The notes under the pieces: model-generated
Seen by the model: the letters and a program-made list of their open reading frames with translations, nothing else
Databases searched by the model: none
What the model was told of the DNA's origin: nothing
Translations under genes and position numbers: made by a program
NCBI RefSeq assembly: GCF_000702905.1
Contig: NZ_JNKR01000013.1
Location: 1 to 59,971, forward strand
DNA: 59,971 bases
Reading direction: 5' to 3'
Source of the DNA: Mitsuokella jalaludinii DSM 13811
GTDB lineage: Bacteria; Bacillota; Negativicutes; Selenomonadales; Selenomonadaceae
Shown here: positions 3,073 to 11,198 of the stretch, piece after piece
Layout: each line of letters opens with the position of its first letter
Position numbering within the stretch: the stretch's first letter is position 1

Positions 3073-4245
3073 ATGAAGACATTCAAGAGCAAGAAAAGAG
3101 CCGCTTGGCTGATGGCCGCTGTGATGATGGGGACGTTCACTTTTGGAGGGATGACGATGCATACGACTTATGCAGCCGTGCCGACGAAAACGCTTGTGCA
3201 CGATTCACAGATGAAGCATGCGACGATCAAGGATCTGGACAACGACACGCGCGTCTTCGCCGTGGACAAGACGATTGAGGCCAAGAAGGTCACGTTCCAG
3301 AACCGTTACGGCTTCGATGTGGCGGGCCACCTCTACCTGCCGAAGGATTTCGATGACAAGAAGCAGTACAAGGCTGTCGTCGTGACGGGCCCGTTCGGCG
3401 CAGTCAAGGAGCAGTCCTCAGGCCTCTACGCACAGGAGATGGCCAAGAATGGCTTTGTTGCCGTCGCCTTCGATCCGTCGACCACGGGGGAGAGCAGCGG
3501 CAAGCGCCGCAATATGGGCTCGCCGGAGATCTTCACGGAAGATTACAGCGCGGCGGTCGATTTCGTCAGCAACCTCAAGTTCGTCAACCCGCAGCAGATC
3601 GGTGCCATTGGCATCTGTGGTCTCTCGGGCATGGCCATCACGGCAGCGACGAATGATACGCGCATCAAGGCGGTCGCGACCTCGGCTATGTACGACATGT
3701 CGGACAGCATCCGCAACCACTATCAAGGGGATTACTATACGCCGGAGCAGCGCGAGATTGTCAAGCACCACCTGGCCGAGATGCGCGATGAGGAGGCAAA
3801 GACAGGCAAGTCCATTCCCGGCTCGCATGAGCTCGCCGTCGATAAGGATGGCAAGGTGATCTCGACGAAGACGATGTTCCCCGACAAGCTGCCGGCGGAT
3901 GCACCGGATGTCGTGAAGGGCTTCTACGATTATTACGTCGGCCGCGCTTACCATCCGCGCGCCATCAACTCCAACACGCTGGCCTGGGATTCGACGACGC
4001 CATACGGCTTCTTCAACTTCTCGCTGATGGATCACATCAAGGAACTCAGCCCGCGCCCGCTGCTGCTCATCACAGGGGACAAGGCGCATTCTAAGTACTT
4101 CTCGGATGCGGTCTATGAAGCGGCAGATGGTCCGAAGGAGGAGATTGTCGTTCCGGGTGCTACGCATACGGATCTCTACGACCAGATGGACAAGATCCCC
4201 TTCGACCGCCTCGTCGCGTTTTTCAACAAGTACCTCGGTGAATGA
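3073..4245 (+). CDS. Exported alpha/beta hydrolase (dienelactone hydrolase/YcjY-like)
   Basis: The 390-residue protein starts with a basic stretch and a hydrophobic signal segment ending near TTYAA (residues about 1-35), so it is probably secreted or membrane-anchored. The hydrolase core includes GHLYLPKDF, VVVTGPFGAVKEQSS, and the nucleophile-elbow region GICGLSGM. In that region Cys182 or Ser185 could be the nucleophile; YcjY-like relatives have GICGSGG there. The acid and histidine are likely in ITGDKAHS and GATHTDLYD. The substrate is unknown. It has its own promoter and is followed 35 bp later by a lipoprotein gene, so the two are probably cotranscribed. Placement between LysR genes and an efflux pump suggests a xenobiotic or stress role. 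Confidence 0.82.
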   Translation: MKTFKSKKRAAWLMAAVMMGTFTFGGMTMHTTYAAVPTKTLVHDSQMKHATIKDLDNDTRVFAVDKTIEAKKVTFQNRYGFDVAGHLYLPKDFDDKKQYKAVVVTGPFGAVKEQSSGLYAQEMAKNGFVAVAFDPSTTGESSGKRRNMGSPEIFTEDYSAAVDFVSNLKFVNPQQIGAIGICGLSGMAITAATNDTRIKAVATSAMYDMSDSIRNHYQGDYYTPEQREIVKHHLAEMRDEEAKTGKSIPGSHELAVDKDGKVISTKTMFPDKLPADAPDVVKGFYDYYVGRAYHPRAINSNTLAWDSTTPYGFFNFSLMDHIKELSPRPLLLITGDKAHSKYFSDAVYEAADGPKEEIVVPGATHTDLYDQMDKIPFDRLVAFFNKYLGE

Positions 4246-4280
4246 TTGCTGGAAAGACGTACCCGGGAGGAAGATGTTTG

Positions 4281-4742
4281 ATGAGCAGATTGTTCTTTTT
4301 CTGTTGTGCTCTGATTGCACTTCTCGTGCTGGGATGTGGCGGCCCCGGAGTGGCAGCCACATCCTTGTCCGGGAAGGAGGCAGAGATGCACGAGACAGGA
4401 GCAGCATCCCTACTAGTGGGCAGCAAAGCGTATGCTCTGAAGTGGGCTGACACGGAGGCTGCTGCCGAGCTGCGGCAGCAGTTGCCGCTGGCCAAGACGT
4501 TTACAGAACTCCATGGCAACGAGAAATACTACAAACTGCCGCAGCACCTGACAGCGGCGGACGAAGATGTCCGCGAGATCCATAAGGGAGATGTCATGCT
4601 GTTTGACGGCCAGTATGTCGTGGTGTTCTATCAGGATTTTCAGACGACCTACCGCTACACGCGTCTGGGTCACGTCGAAGCAGCCAATGATCTGGACGCT
4701 GCTCTGGGAGCAGGTGATGTATTCCTGACCTTGCAACCATGA
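4281..4742 (+). CDS. Lipoprotein with cyclophilin-like fold
   Basis: A short hydrophobic leader (MSRLFFFCCALIALLVLGC) ends in a near-lipobox VLGC with Cys19, so this is a predicted lipoprotein of 153 residues. The rest matches the cyclophilin-like family often annotated as a cyclophil_like2 domain: a strand with SKAYALKW, LPLAKTFTELHGNEKYYKLP, then IHKGDVMLFDG, VVFYQDFQTTYRYTRLGHV and GAGDVFLTL. I start at the ATG at 4281, preceded by GGGAGG; an upstream ATG at 4242 lacks a good site and would bury the leader. Members of this family usually sit beside reductases and MFS pumps, as here. Its biochemical role is not established. Confidence 0.75.
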   Translation: MSRLFFFCCALIALLVLGCGGPGVAATSLSGKEAEMHETGAASLLVGSKAYALKWADTEAAAELRQQLPLAKTFTELHGNEKYYKLPQHLTAADEDVREIHKGDVMLFDGQYVVVFYQDFQTTYRYTRLGHVEAANDLDAALGAGDVFLTLQP

Positions 4743-4782
4743 GATGGGGAGAGCGGTCTGGAGGCGGAAAGGATGAGATGAT

Positions 4783-5964
4783 ATGAAACGACAGCAGCTA
4801 TTGCTCTTGATCTTGGCATTTGGTGTGTTCAGCATCCTCAATACGGAGATGGGCATCATCGGTATCCTGCCGATGGCGGCGGAGATGTACCAGGTGGATA
4901 TCGTACAGGCGGGGATGCTCGTCAGTCTGTTCGCGCTTGGCGTGGCCATCGCAGGGCCGACGATGCCGTTGCTGTTCTCGCGCTTCAATCGCAAGCACGT
5001 GATGCTGCTTGTGCTGGGCGTGTTCACGATCTGCAATGCACTGGCCGTCGTTGCGAGCGACTTCCAGCTCCTTTTAGTGCTGCGCGTCGTGCCGGCCTTT
5101 TTCCACCCGGTCTACTGTGCACTCGCCTTCAGCGTGGCCGCTGCCTCGGTGGCTCCAGAGGATGCGCCGCGGGCTGTGGCGCGCATCAACATGGGCGTCG
5201 CGGCCGGCATGGTCGTCGGCGTGCCCATCAGCAATGTCCTGGCAGCGACGTTTGACTTTTCGATGGCGATGGTCTTCTTTGCAGGCGTGACGGGGCTCAT
5301 GTTTCTGCTGACACTGGCCTTTGTGCCGGACTTGCCGGTGACGCAGCCAATGCGCTACGGCGCGCAGCTTTCCGTTCTGAAGCGCCCGCCGGTCTGGCTG
5401 GCCATCGTGGCGGTCATCTGCCTCAACGGTTCCATCTTCGGTGTCTACAACTACCTCGCTGATTATTTGCAGAAGGTTGCGGCACTGCCGGGAGAGCTCA
5501 TCGCAGCGCTGCTCCTCGTCTATGGCCTCTTGAACATCTGCGGAAGCTATCTGGGGGGCAATTTCCTCGCCAGGTGTCCCAGCACGACCGTACGCCTTTT
5601 CCCGCTGTGTACCATCGCGCTCTACTGCCTGCTCTTTGTGGGCGGTGGGAAGTTGCTGCCTCTTCTTGCGGCACTGATTGTGGCCTGGGGTATCCTCGGT
5701 GGCATCAATGCGAACATCAATCAGTACCTGCTGGCCTGCGTGGCATCGGATGCGCCGGATTTCAGCAACGGCCTGTTCCTGACAGCGGCCAATCTCGGCT
5801 GCATGGCGGGAACCATAATCAGCGGCTTTTTCATCCGCAGCCTCGGCCTGCCCTTCGTCGTCTGCGGTGGCCTGCTGCTGGCGGCCGCTGCCCTGCTACT
5901 CACAAAGTTCGTACACTGCCGGGCAGATGAGCAACAGGCGACGGATTGTCCTATCGGCTCGTAA
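4783..5964 (+). CDS. MFS transporter, AraJ/YdhP-like efflux family
   Basis: The 393-residue protein has about twelve hydrophobic segments. It shows the N-terminal signature of the DHA1/AraJ group (FSILNTEMGIIGILPMAA) and the GxxxGP-type fourth-helix region (FALGVAIAGPTMPLLFSRF). A typical loop follows transmembrane segment 2 (RFNRKHVMLL). Family members export drugs, sugars or arabinose-like compounds; the substrate cannot be read from the sequence. It lies 40 bp after the lipoprotein gene in the same direction, with GGAAAGGATGAG upstream, and converges with the second LysR gene only 9 bp away without a visible terminator. Confidence 0.87.
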   Translation: MKRQQLLLLILAFGVFSILNTEMGIIGILPMAAEMYQVDIVQAGMLVSLFALGVAIAGPTMPLLFSRFNRKHVMLLVLGVFTICNALAVVASDFQLLLVLRVVPAFFHPVYCALAFSVAAASVAPEDAPRAVARINMGVAAGMVVGVPISNVLAATFDFSMAMVFFAGVTGLMFLLTLAFVPDLPVTQPMRYGAQLSVLKRPPVWLAIVAVICLNGSIFGVYNYLADYLQKVAALPGELIAALLLVYGLLNICGSYLGGNFLARCPSTTVRLFPLCTIALYCLLFVGGGKLLPLLAALIVAWGILGGINANINQYLLACVASDAPDFSNGLFLTAANLGCMAGTIISGFFIRSLGLPFVVCGGLLLAAAALLLTKFVHCRADEQQATDCPIGS

Positions 5965-5973
5965 CAAGTGGTT

Positions 5974-6888
5974 TTATGGCAGATTGCTGTTCGTTTTTGA
6001 CGCTTCGGCGATGTGCTTCCGGAGCTCTTCAAGGAAGACACTGCTGGATTTTGAGAGCAGGCGGTATTTCTTCCAGACGATGACGGCGCTGAGCGTGAGG
6101 GCGGGCTCGCGTGGGATGAACTTTAAGTGGCCGGTGTCGAGCTGCAGCAGTTCGTCGATGCCAATCGCATTCACGATGCCCGTGCGGATGAAGTGGGAAG
6201 CGTTGCTGATGAGGTCGAACTTGCCGACGATGTTCATCGTTTCAGCGGATACCTTGCCGCCCGACCATTGACGGTAGTCATAGCGGTTGAGCGACTGGCG
6301 TGAGGAGACGAGCAGCGGCATTGCGTTCAGGTCATCGGGCGTGATGCCGCTATTCTGCGCCCATTTGCTGTCATCGCGCGTCACGATGCCGACGCGCATC
6401 GTTTCGGGCAGCCGGATGAAGTGATACTGCTCGACGTTGAATGGTTCGATCATCAGCGCAAAGTCGATAAGGCCGTGGGCGAGTTTTTCCTCGACGGTGT
6501 CAGCATTGCCGGTGAAGAGCTCGACCGTCAGGCGCGGGTAGCGGCTATGCAGCTCGGCAAAGAGATCGGCGAGGATGTGCATGGCATGCGTCTCGCCTGC
6601 GCCGATGCGGATACAGCCCGCAAGGTCAATCGTGTCATTCTTCATCTCGTCTTCTGTCTGGTTGACGAGCGCGAGGATTTCCTCGGCCCGCTGGCGCAGG
6701 TGTATGCCGTCCTCTGTCAGCACGGTGCTGCGGCTCGTGCGCGTGAAGAGCTTCTTGCCGAGCTCGTCTTCGAGGTCGGCAATCTGGCGCGAGAGTGTCG
6801 GCTGCGTCACATGCAGCACATTGGCGGCCTCGGTCATATTCTGTTCCCTGGCCACGGCCAGGAAGTACGATAAGGTGCGCAGTTCCAT
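5974..6888 (-). CDS. LysR-family transcriptional regulator
   Basis: The 304-residue protein has the LysR helix-turn-helix (ELRTLSYFLAVAREQNMTEA, VTQPTLSRQIADLEDELGKK) and an effector domain starting near GCIRIGAGETHAM. Start choice: AAGGGG lies 8 nt before the ATG at 6888, and a TTG one codon upstream is less likely. It is divergent from the flavin reductase gene at 7081, and a 13-bp perfect palindrome lies between them, the usual layout for a LysR gene and its target. It resembles the regulator at 2048 closely in the DNA-binding part, so the two may recognise related sites. Confidence 0.9.
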   Translation of the reverse strand: MELRTLSYFLAVAREQNMTEAANVLHVTQPTLSRQIADLEDELGKKLFTRTSRSTVLTEDGIHLRQRAEEILALVNQTEDEMKNDTIDLAGCIRIGAGETHAMHILADLFAELHSRYPRLTVELFTGNADTVEEKLAHGLIDFALMIEPFNVEQYHFIRLPETMRVGIVTRDDSKWAQNSGITPDDLNAMPLLVSSRQSLNRYDYRQWSGGKVSAETMNIVGKFDLISNASHFIRTGIVNAIGIDELLQLDTGHLKFIPREPALTLSAVIVWKKYRLLSKSSSVFLEELRKHIAEASKTNSNLP

Positions 6889-7080: not shown

Positions 7081-7632
7081 ATGAAGAAAAATATTGGTAA
7101 AGCCTTGGCACTGTATCCGGCACCGCTTATCGTTGTCGGCAGCCTGGTCGACGGCAAGCCGAATTGGACGCTCGTCGCGCATGCAGGCATCATGGCTCAC
7201 AGCCATCTGATGCTCTCGATGGTCGAGAGCCATTATACGAATCGAGGAATCCTGGCGACGAAGAACGTATCGGTCAATGTCGTGGATGAGAGCTGGCTCA
7301 AAGAAGCGGACTATATGGGCGTAGTTTCCGGGAACAAGACCGATAAGTCTGGGACGTTTGCCTATACGCTCGGAGAGCAGGGGACACCGCTCATCGACAA
7401 GGCCAAAGTCTCGATTGAGTGTTCTGTCATCGATGACTACAAGCTGGATGGATTCGATAATTTCATCTGCCGCATTGAGAATACGTATGCAAGTGAGACG
7501 ATCCTCAACAAAGCAGGCAAGATCGATTACCACGTGTTCAAGCCTGTCCTGTTCGAATTCCCGACGTATGAGTACTTCGTCACGGGAGAAAAGGTCGGTG
7601 ACTGCGCGCGCATGAATCGCAACGCTCAGTGA
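7081..7632 (+). CDS. Flavin reductase family protein (FMN-binding split barrel)
   Basis: The 183-residue protein matches the flavin reductase/FMN-binding split-barrel family: ALYPAPLIVVGSLVDGKPNW at the start, then a VAHAG segment and SHLMLSMVESHYTNRGI. Its mid-section contains VVSGNKTDKSG, and the end has NFICRIENTYASETIL. Such proteins bind FMN and either supply reduced flavin or act as small reductases. GGGAGG precedes the ATG at 7081. It is the first gene of a collinear run reaching 11198 and is divergent from a LysR regulator that may control it. Confidence 0.85.
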   Translation: MKKNIGKALALYPAPLIVVGSLVDGKPNWTLVAHAGIMAHSHLMLSMVESHYTNRGILATKNVSVNVVDESWLKEADYMGVVSGNKTDKSGTFAYTLGEQGTPLIDKAKVSIECSVIDDYKLDGFDNFICRIENTYASETILNKAGKIDYHVFKPVLFEFPTYEYFVTGEKVGDCARMNRNAQ

Positions 7633-7649
7633 CGGTATGAGGGAAGCAT

Positions 7650-7883
7650 ATGGATTTGAAATCAATGAACCGCGGATATCAACAGGGAATATGTGAGGCC
7701 GATGCCTGCCGGTGCGAGCTTTCATCGTTGCCGGACGATGCCGCGCGCATCTGTTTTCTCAAGCGTCATCGACGCAAGCTCATGGCAGCCTTGCATGAGG
7801 CGGAGGAAAAGCTCTCCTGCATCGACTACATGATCTATGAACTGGAGAGGAAGCAGAAAGGGGGCGGCTCTGATGAATCGTAG
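7650..7883 (+). CDS. Small protein of unknown function with MerR-like C-terminal coiled coil
   Basis: I do not recognise this 77-residue protein with confidence. Its second half (FLKRHRRKLMAALHEAEEKL, then IDYMIYELERKQ) resembles the dimerising coiled coil at the C-terminus of MerR regulators, but no helix-turn-helix precedes it. Three cysteines lie in the first half and at the coil. GAGGGAAGC precedes the ATG, and its end overlaps the next gene by 11 bp, so it is probably translated and coupled to the flavodoxin gene. It may be a remnant of a MerR-type regulator or a genuine small partner protein. Confidence 0.55.
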   Translation: MDLKSMNRGYQQGICEADACRCELSSLPDDAARICFLKRHRRKLMAALHEAEEKLSCIDYMIYELERKQKGGGSDES

Positions 7884-8559
7884 GGAATTCTTGAAACTGA
7901 CAGGCATGGGAGCCATGACGGTATTCCTCAGCGGCTGTGGCCTTTCGGCACTGACGGGACAGGAAAAGGATGCTTCAGGTATGGCAGCGCATGAGAAAGG
8001 TGAGATTTCGGGAGGGAAAGCAATGAAGATTGTCGTGATCACAAGCAGTCCGCATCCACATGATGAATCAACATCCATCTATCTGGCTGACCGCTTCACA
8101 AAAGGAGCAACACAGGCCGGCCATGAGGTATTCACCTTTGACGCGGCCAACAGTGAGACGCATCCGTGCCGCGGCTGCGACCAGTGCCATATGGATGGCC
8201 CGTGTATCTGGAAGGACGACATCGAGAACGCCTTGATGCCGAAGATGCTGGAGGCAGATCTGCTCGTGCTGACGACGCCGCTCTATTACTTCGGCATGTC
8301 GGCACAGCTCAAGACAATCGTTGACCGCTTCTACTCGCGGACGGGCAGGCTGCACGGCAAGAAGTCCATCCTGATCGCGACGGCTTACAACCGTGACGAT
8401 TGGACGATGGCGGCACTCGTCGATCACTACGACACACTGGTCCGCTATATGGAATGGCAGGATGTCGGCAAAGTACTCGGCATCGGCTGCGGTTCGCGCT
8501 CGCTCGTTGAGAACTCGAAGTTCGGCGACATGGCAGAGCAGATGGGGGCGAATCTTTGA
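7873..8559 (+). CDS. Tat-type lipoprotein flavodoxin/NADPH-dependent FMN reductase family protein
   Basis: The N-terminus MNRREFLKLTGMGAMTVF has a twin-arginine motif and leads to the lipobox LSGC with Cys22, predicting export and lipid anchoring. After a linker, a flavodoxin-like fold begins near residue 51 (KIVVITSSPHPHDEST for the FMN phosphate). It includes the cysteine-rich loop CRGCDQC...GPC, typical of iron-sulfur flavoprotein-type reductases, and TTPLYYFGMSAQLKTIVDR. The start at 7873 overlaps the preceding small gene. A second strong site, GGGAGG before the ATG at 8023 (Met51), could yield a cytosolic form without the leader. A paralogous leader occurs at 10533. Electron acceptor role inferred; substrate unknown. 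Confidence 0.8.
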   Translation: MNRREFLKLTGMGAMTVFLSGCGLSALTGQEKDASGMAAHEKGEISGGKAMKIVVITSSPHPHDESTSIYLADRFTKGATQAGHEVFTFDAANSETHPCRGCDQCHMDGPCIWKDDIENALMPKMLEADLLVLTTPLYYFGMSAQLKTIVDRFYSRTGRLHGKKSILIATAYNRDDWTMAALVDHYDTLVRYMEWQDVGKVLGIGCGSRSLVENSKFGDMAEQMGANL

Positions 8560-8587
8560 GTAATAGGGTGAATGAAGGAGCAGGAAT

Positions 8588-9595
8588 ATGGAATACACGA
8601 GATTGGGCAAGACGGATATTGAGGTTTCGCGCGTATGCCTGGGCTGCATGAGTTTTGGCAAGCCGACGATGCATGCGTGGACGCTCGATGAAGCGGCGAG
8701 CGAGCAGGTGATCTGCCACGCGCTGGCCCTTGGCATCAATTTCTTTGACACGGCAAACTGCTACAGCAGCGGGACGTCGGAGGAGTACCTTGGTCGGGCG
8801 CTGCAACGCAATCATATTCCCCGGGATAAGGTTGTGTTGGCCTCGAAGGTCTACTTTAATGAAGGCCGTCTTTCAAAGAATGCCATCCAGAGGGAAATCG
8901 AGGGCAGCCTGAAACGCCTCGGCACGGATTACCTGGACCTTTACATCATCCATCGTTTCGATTATGACACGCCGATGGAAGAGACGATGGAAGCCCTGGA
9001 TGGGCTTGTCCGGGTCGGCAAGGTACGGGCCATCGGAGCTTCCGCGATGTATGGGTACCAGTTTATGAACATGCAGCATATCGCTGAACAGCACGGTTGG
9101 ACGCCGTTCTCTGTCATGGAGAACCACTACAACTTGCTCTACCGCGAAGATGAGCGGGAACTCATCCCCATCTGCAAGCAGATGCAGGTTTCATTGATGC
9201 CGTACAGTTCGCTAGCAGCCGGTCATCTGGCGCGCAGGACATGGCGTTCTGATTCCCTGCGTGGCAAGACCGACCGCGTGGCCATGGGGAAATATGACCG
9301 AAGCGAACAGGAGGACATGAAGATTGTCGAGCGTGTCTATGAGCTGTCGGAGCGCTATGGTGTCAAGATGCAACAGATTGCTCTGGCCTGGGAATGGGCG
9401 AAAGGTGTTGCCACCCCGATTGTCGGCGCGACAAAGACGAAGTATCTCGATGATGCAGTTGGCGCACTCGCCGTCTCGCTGACCGAAGAGGACATTGCCT
9501 ATCTGGAGGAGCCTTACATTCCACACAGGGTTGTCGGGGCCATCCTCGAGAATCCGCCGCAGGGCGTCGTTCTGCTCGATGAAAAGAACGAATAA
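8588..9595 (+). CDS. Aldo/keto reductase
   Basis: The 335-residue protein is a TIM-barrel aldo/keto reductase of the YajO/general stress protein 69-like group. It shows MEYTRLGKTDIEVSRVCLGC and the catalytic tetrad in NFFDTANCYSSG (Asp, Tyr), VVLASKVY (Lys) and LYIIHRFD (His). The NADPH-binding end has TPIVGATKTKYLDDAV. It reduces aldehydes or ketones with NADPH; the natural substrate is unknown. AAGGAG precedes the ATG, and it lies 28 bp after the lipoprotein flavodoxin gene, so it is likely part of the same transcript. With the iron alcohol dehydrogenase at 730 it supports a carbonyl-detoxification theme. Confidence 0.9.
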   Translation: MEYTRLGKTDIEVSRVCLGCMSFGKPTMHAWTLDEAASEQVICHALALGINFFDTANCYSSGTSEEYLGRALQRNHIPRDKVVLASKVYFNEGRLSKNAIQREIEGSLKRLGTDYLDLYIIHRFDYDTPMEETMEALDGLVRVGKVRAIGASAMYGYQFMNMQHIAEQHGWTPFSVMENHYNLLYREDERELIPICKQMQVSLMPYSSLAAGHLARRTWRSDSLRGKTDRVAMGKYDRSEQEDMKIVERVYELSERYGVKMQQIALAWEWAKGVATPIVGATKTKYLDDAVGALAVSLTEEDIAYLEEPYIPHRVVGAILENPPQGVVLLDEKNE

Positions 9596-9643
9596 GAAAA
9601 GCATATATGAATCCATGAGGAAAGGAAACTGGGGGATGATGGT

Positions 9644-9877
9644 ATGATTTTTCAGAGGAGCAGACCGGATTGGAAAGGGCGACTGGCCAACGTCCTCATC
9701 CTCTTTGGACTTGTCTATGCGTGGCTCTGCTTCACATGCGTCTTGCGTCAGGGCCATGTCTCGGAGGACGACTACGTGCGCATGACGCAGGAAATCGTCG
9801 AGCAGAGCTTGCCGAAGGATGCTGTGCCGGCTGGTTGGGAGCGTTCGGTAAGGGAGACGAGAGAGGTGCAGCCATGA
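9644..9877 (+). CDS. Small single-pass membrane protein
   Basis: A 77-residue protein with a basic N-terminus (RSRPDWKGR), one hydrophobic helix (LANVLILFGLVYAWLCFTCV) and a charged C-terminal tail (about 45 residues). I do not recognise a family. Its stop overlaps the ATG of the next membrane protein (ATGA at 9874-9877), implying translational coupling and probably a common complex with it. Confidence 0.65.
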   Translation: MIFQRSRPDWKGRLANVLILFGLVYAWLCFTCVLRQGHVSEDDYVRMTQEIVEQSLPKDAVPAGWERSVRETREVQP

Positions 9878-10536
9878 GGTACGGCCTGGATATCTTGATG
9901 CTCGTCCTGCTGGTCGGTGAGATGATGTTCTTCTATCTGCCGCCTCTGGTACATGAAGCTGTAGGGGTGGCCTTCTTGTTGCCGATTGCCTGGCATCTCG
10001 CACTCAACCGCCGCTATGTCTCGTCGCTTGGAAGCGGACGGTGGAATGAGCCGCGGGCTCTTCGGTGCCTGCTGAACATCCTGTTCGCTGCTGCCTGCTT
10101 TTTGACGGTCATCAGCGGCTGCCTGACATCGAGCGAGCTCTTTGCAGATGTCGTGCCGTTCTCGCTGCGCGGCAATCCTTCGCTCTATCAGCTGCACAGC
10201 ACGGCGGCGCGGTACTTCCTGGTCTTAGCGGGACTCCATCTCGGTCTGCACTTGAAGGCTTGGTGGCAGAAATGGCTGCACGCTGCAGGCATCCCCTCGC
10301 GGCCATTGCCTGCAAGGATGCTCCTATTGGGGTTCGGTATGCTGCTAGGGGCAGCCGGTATCTATGCAGCCCATCAAGATCGGCTCGTCGAGCACCTGCA
10401 GGGCGCACATATCTTCATGACGCCGGCACTTTCATATAATGGTGCGGGCTATGCGTTGACGCAGGCAGGCATCTTCCTGTTGTTTGCCGAGATTGGCTGG
10501 CTTTTATCGCTTTGGAAAGGAGTGCGGAAAAAATGA
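9874..10536 (+). CDS. DUF4405-like cytochrome b-type membrane protein
   Basis: The 220-residue protein has about five or six hydrophobic helices. Histidines sit in or next to them: LVHEAVGVAF, IAWHLALNRRY, YQLHSTAARYF and LAGLHLGLHLKAWW. This pattern matches DUF4405, a family of small membrane proteins thought to bind b-type haem. I choose the ATG at 9874, which overlaps the preceding stop; a longer frame upstream is only an out-of-frame reading of that gene. It overlaps the next flavodoxin start by 4 bp. I infer that it passes electrons across the membrane to the lipid-anchored flavodoxin encoded immediately downstream. Confidence 0.7.
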   Translation: MRYGLDILMLVLLVGEMMFFYLPPLVHEAVGVAFLLPIAWHLALNRRYVSSLGSGRWNEPRALRCLLNILFAAACFLTVISGCLTSSELFADVVPFSLRGNPSLYQLHSTAARYFLVLAGLHLGLHLKAWWQKWLHAAGIPSRPLPARMLLLGFGMLLGAAGIYAAHQDRLVEHLQGAHIFMTPALSYNGAGYALTQAGIFLLFAEIGWLLSLWKGVRKK

Positions 10537-11198
10537 ATCGCAGAGAGTTTTTGAGAATCGGTGGCATGAGCATGATGGCTCTGGTACTTGGCGGATGCGG
10601 ACTGTCCTCGCTGACGGGGGAGTCATCGGGCGGACAGGCTGGCAGCAGCGCGGCCGCCGGCACGGCAGCGTCCTCCTCGTCGGGTACGGCAGCGGCGGCA
10701 GGCGGCAAGACGCTTGTCGTCTATTATTCCGCCACAGGACGCACGGAGCGGGTGGCTGAGGTCATTGCCAAGGAGCGTGGGGCGGATATCATGAAGCTTG
10801 TCCCTTCGCCGGACTACATGGAGGCAGACCTCGACTACAATGACGCGGGCAGCCGCGTGAGCCGCGAGCACGACGACGCTTCGCTGCGCGAGAAGATCCA
10901 GCTCCAGAAGGCGGTGCCCGACAACTGGGCCTCGTATGACACGGTCTTCATCGGCTACCCGATCTGGTGGGGGATTGCAGCCTGGCCGGTCGATGCTTTC
11001 GTCAAGGCCAATGATTTTTCGGGTAAGCAGGTTGTGACCTTTGCGACGGCTGCGAGCTCACCGCTCGGCAACAGCGGCAAACTCCTCGCCGAGATGGCCG
11101 GAGGCAAGGGCAGCTGGCAGGACGGCACGTGCTTCACGGGCAGCCTCAGCGATGCCAAGGTCAAGGACTGGCTCAAGTCCCTCAAGCTGTCAAACTAA
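10533..11198 (+). CDS. Tat-type lipoprotein flavodoxin
   Basis: The 221-residue protein starts with MNRREFLRIGGMSMMALVLG and lipobox LGGC (Cys22). It is nearly a copy of the leader of the flavodoxin at 7873, including the following CGLSSLTG. A Ser/Ala/Gly-rich linker (residues about 30-60) leads to a classical flavodoxin domain with the FMN phosphate loop SATGRT, YPIWWGIAAWPVDAFV around the isoalloxazine ring, and FATAASSPLGNSG. The start overlaps the preceding membrane-protein gene (ATGA), so the two are translationally coupled. A flavodoxin tethered outside the membrane is unusual, since classical flavodoxins are cytosolic. Its partner is probably the DUF4405-like protein. Confidence 0.85.
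   Translation: MNRREFLRIGGMSMMALVLGGCGLSSLTGESSGGQAGSSAAAGTAASSSSGTAAAAGGKTLVVYYSATGRTERVAEVIAKERGADIMKLVPSPDYMEADLDYNDAGSRVSREHDDASLREKIQLQKAVPDNWASYDTVFIGYPIWWGIAAWPVDAFVKANDFSGKQVVTFATAASSPLGNSGKLLAEMAGGKGSWQDGTCFTGSLSDAKVKDWLKSLKLSN

Follow-up and report, generated by a model that had tools for sequence, protein, structure and literature searches.

The DNA analysed here (the window) comprises 59,971 nucleotides, positions 1 to 59,971 of contig NZ_JNKR01000013.1 of Mitsuokella jalaludinii DSM 13811, and carries an operon for two predicted envelope-anchored flavoproteins, FldA (7873–8559) and FldB (10533–11198), together with a DUF4405 membrane protein. The genome (G000) is 2.41 Mb in size and 99.99% complete, and the operon lies on contig C13. 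All results were obtained by sequence work; L numbers denote fetched loci and G numbers denote genomes. From 7081 to 11198, a run of genes on one strand encodes a flavin-reductase-like protein, a 77-codon open reading frame (ORF), FldA, an aldo/keto reductase, a 77-residue membrane protein (TM77), the DUF4405 protein and FldB. All genes named in the original prediction, which had been made from the letters of the DNA, were found in place in this one collinear run, and the reported ATGA overlaps that join the last three genes are real (9874–9877 and 10533–10536).

Twin-arginine lipoprotein leaders of FldA and FldB

The long form of FldA (7873–8559, + strand) consists of a twin-arginine translocation (Tat) signal, a lipobox with Cys22, a variable spacer and an FMN_red domain with a CX2CX2CX5C motif. 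FldB (10533–11198, + strand) has a Tat lipobox leader, a low-complexity linker and a Flavodoxin_4 domain (PF12682, 123 bits). Read directly, each protein starts with MNRREFL, and in each Cys22 lies within a GCG lipobox with L-S-[AS]-L-T-G after it. This confirms the near-identical twin-arginine lipobox leaders originally described. When FldA was searched against its own genome (5 matches, E ≤ 0.001), the FldB leader was the sole match to the FldA leader (36 residues, 53% identity, E 3.3e-6). Scores for the Pfam TAT_signal profile were below the cut-off of 22.7 for both proteins (FldA 15.3 bits, FldB 11.4 bits). A Tat translocase is encoded in the genome, with one TatC (224.5 bits) and two adjoining TatA-like ORFs recognised by eye. 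The leader features, TatC and the two TatA-like ORFs support the Tat-lipoprotein reading of the leaders, and the long form of FldA and FldB are predicted to be Tat-exported lipoproteins with a lipid anchor and a surface location.

The leader is widespread among FldA orthologues. Strict patterns detected RRxF in 77 and [SGA]GC[GT] in 76 of 82 distinct rows, with both present in 73; the remaining rows, without both patterns, include one leaderless and two truncated sequences. Two leader-bearing rows, L122 and L144, missed the domain pattern and stand outside the 82. The N-termini of FldB are more diverse. Inspection by eye of 53 distinct rows gave 6 with a Tat lipobox, 30 with a lipobox of the secretory (Sec) type, 9 with some other Sec-type or anchor-like N-terminus, 6 with none of these and 2 unresolved. 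The Tat-leader rows all belong to the clade of the window (window, G001, G002, G044, Selenomonas montiformis and Selenomonas bovis). In the FldB domain tree, these rows cluster together with a 5'-truncated duplicate from G002, and an Acidaminococcus protein bearing a Sec lipobox lies next to the cluster. The tree labels ("none" or "SecSP") derive from strict patterns; Sec lipoboxes are visible by eye in L056, L103, L113, L114 and L065, and Sec-type signal peptides in L037, L064, L086, L089 and L098. This distribution fits a single replacement of a Sec by a Tat leader in the Mitsuokella/S. bovis clade, a prediction that is weakened by the long branch (0.98) on which the Tat-leader group sits. 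The Tat-leader FldB gene may instead have been acquired whole from elsewhere. In G005, FldB keeps its Tat leader but has lost most of the domain, and it is not counted among the 53 rows. In this draft assembly (L050, 7334–7528), an internal deletion leaves the leader and the C-terminal end; DUF4405 is retained, FldA is incomplete only because the contig ends within it, and ApbE is present in the genome.

The twin leaders had been proposed to reflect leader duplication or recombination between the two genes. Nucleotide identity between FldA and FldB leaders was 0.64–0.69 within genomes (5 genomes) and 0.59–0.74 between genomes of the clade. Same-genome pairs were no closer than cross-genome pairs, which gives no support for continuing recombination in present genomes. 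The data fit either a single ancient copying of the leader or convergence of both genes on a common leader type for Tat lipoproteins.

A conserved, predicted second translation start within the FldA gene

After the lipobox, FldA orthologues have a freely varying spacer and then mostly the sequence S-G-G-K-x-M-K-I-V-V. In the window, the DNA encoding this segment contains an internal Shine-Dalgarno (SD) sequence, GGGAGGG (8010–8016, + strand), followed after 6 bases by a second in-frame ATG at 8023 that had gone unmentioned in the original prediction. Translation from this codon, Met51 of the long form, would give a short FldA (8023–8559, + strand) that is predicted to be cytosolic.

An SD core (GGAGG, GAGGG, AGGGG or GGGGG) was present in 76 of 78 distinct leader-bearing orthologues (81 before duplicate removal, the rows L047, L050 and L075 without a visible leader being excluded). 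When the seven codons were recoded synonymously with each gene's own codon usage, the expected number was 23.2 ± 3.9 of 78, with a maximum of 35 in 500 trials. The distance from SD to ATG was 7 nucleotides in 66 and 8 nucleotides in 8 of the 78 rows. The constraint was most evident at the Gly codon at position -4, where the third base was a purine in 65 of 65 cases, compared with 27% for Gly elsewhere in the FldA gene. Its third-base entropy (0.62 bits) was the lowest among 46 conserved four-fold sites, the next being 0.99. At 12 other conserved Gly sites, including the neighbour at -3, purine third bases ranged from 6% to 62%, and one conserved Ala site reached 96%. Where Glu replaced this Gly (8 of 78), the sequence was always TCG-GAG-G, so that GGAGG was retained one base leftward; where Arg replaced it (3 of 78), the sequence was TCG-AGG-GG. 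Since the SD is kept through these amino-acid changes, selection seems to act on the nucleotides.

The calculated SD hybrid energy was -9.9 kcal/mol at the internal start and -1.9 at 643 other internal Met codons. The long start, with -6.75, was weaker than the internal one; this value covers the 35 of 78 rows with an ATG close before the twin arginine and 20 nucleotides of open frame upstream. The internal SD site is also retained in another family of the class (L156). We regard the predicted conserved internal start in the FldA gene as well supported by sequence. One gene should then yield both a lipid-anchored and a cytosolic FldA, and we infer that the second start is used in cells. Given the conserved internal start, a cytosolic form of FldA is to be expected as well, and finding FldA in the cytosol without lipid would not be enough to disprove that the long form is exported.

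A scan of FldA and eight other families of the clusters with a loose rule found a strong internal SD start in 15 of 21 FldA genes, at least one of these at another codon, and in 0 of 23 FldB genes. For further families, named by eye, the counts were 0/6 (DUF362-like), 1/6 (cupin), 2/6 (amidohydrolase), 2/6 (CMD), 1/5 (ABH), 0/4 (CMD-cupin) and 1/3 (ABM). Two of six exported carboxymuconolactone decarboxylase-like genes (L060, 14295–14780; L065, 7104–7532) have a strong-SD ATG just after the signal peptide, and leaderless versions of this enzyme exist in L045 and L054.

Leaderless relatives of FldA

Outside the class, FldA had 14 matches in 11 genomes, and none carried a leader. In these matches, the frame was open for only 1–19 residues upstream of the column of the internal ATG, and most had their start codon at this column or within a few residues of it. 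One leaderless relative, L159, reads V-G-G-K-S in frame directly before the Met, which might mean that the linker in leader-bearing genes is an old ribosome-binding site that has come to be translated.

Two genomes encode the two forms separately. In G009, a leader-bearing FldA gene is followed by a leaderless one, with a cyclophilin-like lipoprotein gene (by eye) and a DUF4405-like gene adjoining. In G040, a leaderless FldA gene directly follows DUF4405 and the leader-bearing copy lies elsewhere. From these split genomes it is evident that both FldA forms are used in the lineage.

FldA is of the iron-sulfur flavoprotein type

The description of the two proteins as flavodoxin-fold proteins fits FldB, with its Flavodoxin_4 domain, and needs amending for FldA. 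The Pfam match of FldA is FMN_red (PF03358, 62.4 bits), and the codons for Cys99 to Cys111 (8167–8205, + strand) encode C-x2-C-x2-C-x5-C, a probable [4Fe-4S] site. Cys99, Cys102, Cys105 and Cys111 were invariant in all 17 aligned orthologues, one of which is leaderless, and all 82 FldA rows had CX2CX2C followed by a further Cys after 4–8 residues. According to a study of iron-sulfur flavoproteins (Isf), the compact motif CX2CX2CX5-7C most likely ligates a [4Fe-4S] cluster in these proteins (PMC3164229). By this motif, FldA is predicted to be of the iron-sulfur flavoprotein type and not a classical flavodoxin, with a predicted cluster.

The AlphaFold2 model of FldA had a mean pLDDT of 75, with low values in the leader and in residues 100–103 of the Cys loop. 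Its fold matched FMN reductases, azoreductases and flavodiiron proteins (Z 16.5–17.9), and the first match in a profile search of PDB sequences was 7d38, titled flavone reductase. No solved Isf structure was prominent in the PDB sequence searches or in the structure list for FldA; kinship may still hold.

Proposed flavin binding without ApbE

No ApbE match was found in G000, in a search whose control was positive in 7 of 14 genomes. ApbE was detected in 0 of 3 genomes of the genus and in 64 of 121 genomes of the family. An ApbE-type flavinylation motif, searched as a loose pattern, was absent from 100 FldA and 65 FldB ORFs (duplicates included), and FldB aligned to 4j8p showed no flavinylation insertion between strand 1 and helix 1. 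Flavinylation of FldA or FldB is not supported, with the ApbE match, the motif and the FldB insertion all absent. Without ApbE and the motif, FMN should be held non-covalently in both lipoproteins. Sec-exported relatives of FldB also lacked the motif, and hence Tat export is not the sole way in which the family manages without flavinylation.

The DUF4405 protein and its genetic linkage

The DUF4405 membrane protein (9874–10536, + strand) matched PF14358 with 31.5 bits (cut-off 26.7). The membrane histidines noted before were confirmed in a 51-row alignment. Four were invariant in all covering rows (His27 and His41, 50/50 each; His108 and His122, 51/51 each), while His126 and His179 were present in 48 and 49 of 51 rows, respectively. 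A haem role, also part of the original prediction, gains support from a publication on another DUF4405 protein: a DUF4405 protein of an Oscillospiraceae bacterium is a haem-b cytochrome, DUF4405 genes are linked with apbE and with genes for flavinylated extracytosolic Flavodoxin_4 proteins, and DUF4405 is likened to MsrQ- and PepSY-like transmembrane electron-transfer proteins (PMC11334425). Four histidines are considered in that study, and His27, His41, His108 and His122 are candidate counterparts of these. We consider the DUF4405 protein of the operon a candidate haem-b conduit, with haem assigned through the family.

DUF4405 homologues were found in 37 of 80 genomes searched, and 36 of these were among the 49 genomes of the same family. 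FldA or FldB was present on 26 of 32 fetched DUF4405 loci. Conversely, of 80 named FldA loci, 33 had DUF4405, 31 had FldB and 27 had both within 3 kb on the same strand. The gene set thus recurs within the family, as the proposed check of neighbourhood conservation had asked. In L077, L078 and L080, exported and leaderless Flavodoxin_4 proteins are both encoded around DUF4405.

Proposed electron route and alternatives

We consider it fairly probable that the products of the operon form a transmembrane flavin/haem electron conduit, and that FldA takes part in it in two forms made from two starts. The leaders, the Tat genes, the lack of an ApbE match, the internal SD with its ATG, the Cys and His motifs and the gene linkage were read from the sequence itself. 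On the cytosolic side, the flavin-reductase-like protein and/or the short FldA would accept electrons from NAD(P)H. These flavoproteins would reduce the haem of DUF4405, which would pass the electrons across the membrane to the lipid-anchored long FldA and FldB outside. FMN in both flavoproteins, the iron-sulfur cluster in FldA and haem in DUF4405 are expected from the respective protein families. FMN and the cluster of FldA would be inserted before the folded proteins are exported by Tat; with FMN loaded in advance, there would be no need for covalent flavinylation by ApbE. The outer flavoproteins would then reduce an extracytoplasmic electrophile, for instance a quinone, an azo or nitro compound or a plant phenolic. 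This guess at the substrate was made because of the fold neighbours of FldA and the gene company in relatives, which by eye includes exported carboxymuconolactone decarboxylase, cupin, monooxygenase-like and amidohydrolase genes. The original prediction had suggested xenobiotics or oxidised envelope proteins as possible substrates. The direction of electron flow, NAD(P)H as the source and the terminal electrophile are the conjectural parts of the scheme. In a more tentative extension, to which we give somewhat less than even weight, the short and long forms of FldA would be donor and acceptor of the haem-b protein in a symmetrical flavin-haem-flavin conduit conserved in the Selenomonadaceae, where Tat export, in place of ApbE, would hold non-covalent FMN on the outside.

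Several observations weigh against the conduit. In Escherichia coli, the residue after the lipobox Cys decides between sorting to the inner and the outer membrane (the Lol rule). The Gly at this position would direct both lipoproteins to the outer membrane and away from DUF4405, if the E. coli rule holds in the present host, which it may not. TRP/polycystin channels rank beside cytochrome b in the fold search with the DUF4405 model, which is itself confident (pLDDT 91). In 43 of the 80 FldA loci, neither DUF4405 nor FldB lay within 3 kb on the same strand. When the count is limited to the 51 loci flanked by 3 kb or more on each side, DUF4405 was present in 22 and FldB in 22, so that short contigs explain the absences only in part. 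The conduit need not always be the partner of FldA. As to the second start, the SD excess per sequence was modest (median p 0.09, with 31% below 0.05), and the joint signal comes from related orthologues that share ancestry; the within-gene controls answer part of this concern. The split genomes showed no clear trend towards loss of the SD alongside a separate leaderless copy: the internal SD was weak in the long gene of G009, which has such a copy (-6.9), equally weak in G037 without a close second copy (-7.0), and strong in G040, which has one (-9.3).

The main rival, which we rate as possible though on the unlikely side, has the menaquinol pool feed the lipoproteins through DUF4405 as a quinol:flavodoxin oxidoreductase, with the short FldA and the flavin reductase as ordinary cytosolic enzymes. 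The DUF4405 model does resemble the cytochrome b of quinol enzymes, with Z 9.3 for formate dehydrogenase, below the safe level for helical bundles, and about 7.5 for b6f, both weak; the match to PF01292 (E 0.0044) was likewise below its cut-off. Two points favour the conduit over this version, namely the likening of DUF4405 to MsrQ/PepSY-like transmembrane electron-transfer proteins in PMC11334425, and the leaderless flavoproteins encoded directly beside DUF4405.

It is unlikely, in our judgement, that FldA and FldB are independent detoxifying reductases of the envelope, co-induced by a LysR regulator under electrophile stress, and that DUF4405 is unrelated to them. The 43 FldA loci without nearby DUF4405 or FldB would fit this explanation, as would the stress-like neighbours recognised by eye (aldo/keto reductase, carboxymuconolactone decarboxylase, cupin, monooxygenase-like and MFS genes). 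It has to account for the presence of FldA or FldB on 26 of 32 DUF4405 loci, and for the general point that an exported flavoprotein without NAD(P)H needs a membrane donor.

The other two alternatives concern the internal SD. It could be a translation pause for the Tat leader or for flavoprotein folding, with no short protein made, and its place between leader and folded domain, the same in orthologues, would suit this role; a pause, however, needs no start codon, and an ATG follows at start-like spacing in the 78 rows and coincides with the start of leaderless relatives, which makes a pause improbable. Least probable is a functionless relic of an ancestral cytosolic gene behind an added leader, an idea suggested by the shared start position of leaderless relatives and by L159; against it, the SD survives amino-acid changes family-wide, right next to an upstream spacer that is free to vary.

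Other genes of the operon and its surroundings

The flavin-reductase-like protein (7081–7632, + strand; PF01613) has no visible signal peptide and has homologues in G002 (L051), L057 and L060; it is a candidate cytosolic electron donor. The 77-residue ORF that follows (7650–7883, + strand) belongs to no recognised family, lies upstream of FldA or DUF4405 in close relatives, and has counterparts in L049 (97% identity), L051 (71%), L052 (80%) and L064 (36%). This ORF, absent from the original prediction, overlaps the start of FldA by 11 nucleotides and may serve translational coupling of FldA. Kinship with MerR, suspected from the look of its C-terminus, was dropped after BLASTP against one MerR protein gave nothing useful. 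The aldo/keto reductase (8588–9595, + strand; PF00248) is of a cytosolic type. TM77 (9644–9877, + strand) has one membrane helix by eye and a distant homologue in L060 (40%). In L051, L060 and the window, a CxxC is found within or close to this helix. These proteins also have a conserved tail, [SP][EQ][DE]DY[VA]RM[TS]QE, which L050 shares.

A LysR gene (5974–6888, - strand) diverges from the operon and likely regulates it, judging by its position; LysR genes also lie near several related clusters. Farther upstream come genes for an MFS transporter, a lipoprotein of cyclophilin-like type (its lipobox seen by eye) and an alpha/beta hydrolase whose N-terminus resembles a signal sequence. Other genera also have homologues of the hydrolase and the MFS transporter (window 3073–5961) close to their DUF4405 clusters (L056, L058, L060 and L068), and one of the cyclophilin-like gene is found in L052 and L058. 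Ranked by identity of FldA, the closest named relatives are a Selenomonadaceae metagenome-assembled genome, S. montiformis, S. bovis and Mitsuokella multacida; G002 belongs to the genus of the window. The Selenomonadaceae clusters L037–L068 contain changing sets of normally cytosolic enzyme families that bear export signals, named by eye as amidohydrolase, cupin, carboxymuconolactone decarboxylase, monooxygenase-like and DUF362-like.

Relation to known systems and significance

Envelope flavin electron transfer with DUF4405 is already published for flavinylated proteins, in the DUF4405/Flavodoxin_4 clusters of Huang et al (2024, PMC11334425). The present operon shares with these the same Pfam pair, a membrane haem b and a flavodoxin outside. 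Those clusters include apbE and in many cases a flavin transporter, together with a flavinylation insertion (PMC11334425), whereas the present system has no ApbE match, no motif and Tat leaders. With Isf of Methanosarcina thermophila and its relatives, FldA shares the type of FMN flavoprotein and the motif CX2CX2CX5-7C (PMC3164229). Unlike Isf, the long form of FldA is predicted to be lipid-anchored and exported, and its cluster is proposed from the motif. A literature search, judged by titles and openings of abstracts, found no Isf with Tat export. To our knowledge, no Isf has been described as lipid-anchored and exported.

MsrPQ likewise combines a cytosolic flavin reductase (Fre), a membrane haem b (MsrQ) and an enzyme that is folded before Tat export. 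Its terminal partner is the molybdenum enzyme MsrP, whereas the partners here are flavoproteins. Some bacterial genes with two in-frame starts yield products that differ in their N-terminus, and FldA resembles these in having one gene, two N-termini and possibly two places; it differs in the family-wide presence of the second start and in its product, a redox lipoprotein whose gene often neighbours that of a membrane cytochrome. What we consider new is the iron-sulfur flavoprotein with a Tat leader, its internal start conserved among orthologues, and the apparent switch of FldB from a Sec to a Tat leader within a clade whose genus lacks ApbE. Besides PMC11334425, the same arrangement was not found in the literature, judged by titles and openings of abstracts and with few subscription papers covered.

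The main role of flavinylation has been argued, in PMC11334425, to be the prevention of flavin loss outside the cytosol, and extracytosolic flavodoxins show signs of this. The present family suggests a second solution, in which the flavoprotein is folded and loaded in the cytosol and then exported by Tat with a lipid anchor. If the internal start does bring a single redox enzyme to either side of the membrane, it would be a directly testable case of bacterial dual targeting, and a single annotated start would describe only half of the products of the FldA gene. In this rumen- or gut-type bacterium, a haem protein seems to carry electrons across the membrane to flavin proteins that are anchored by lipid.

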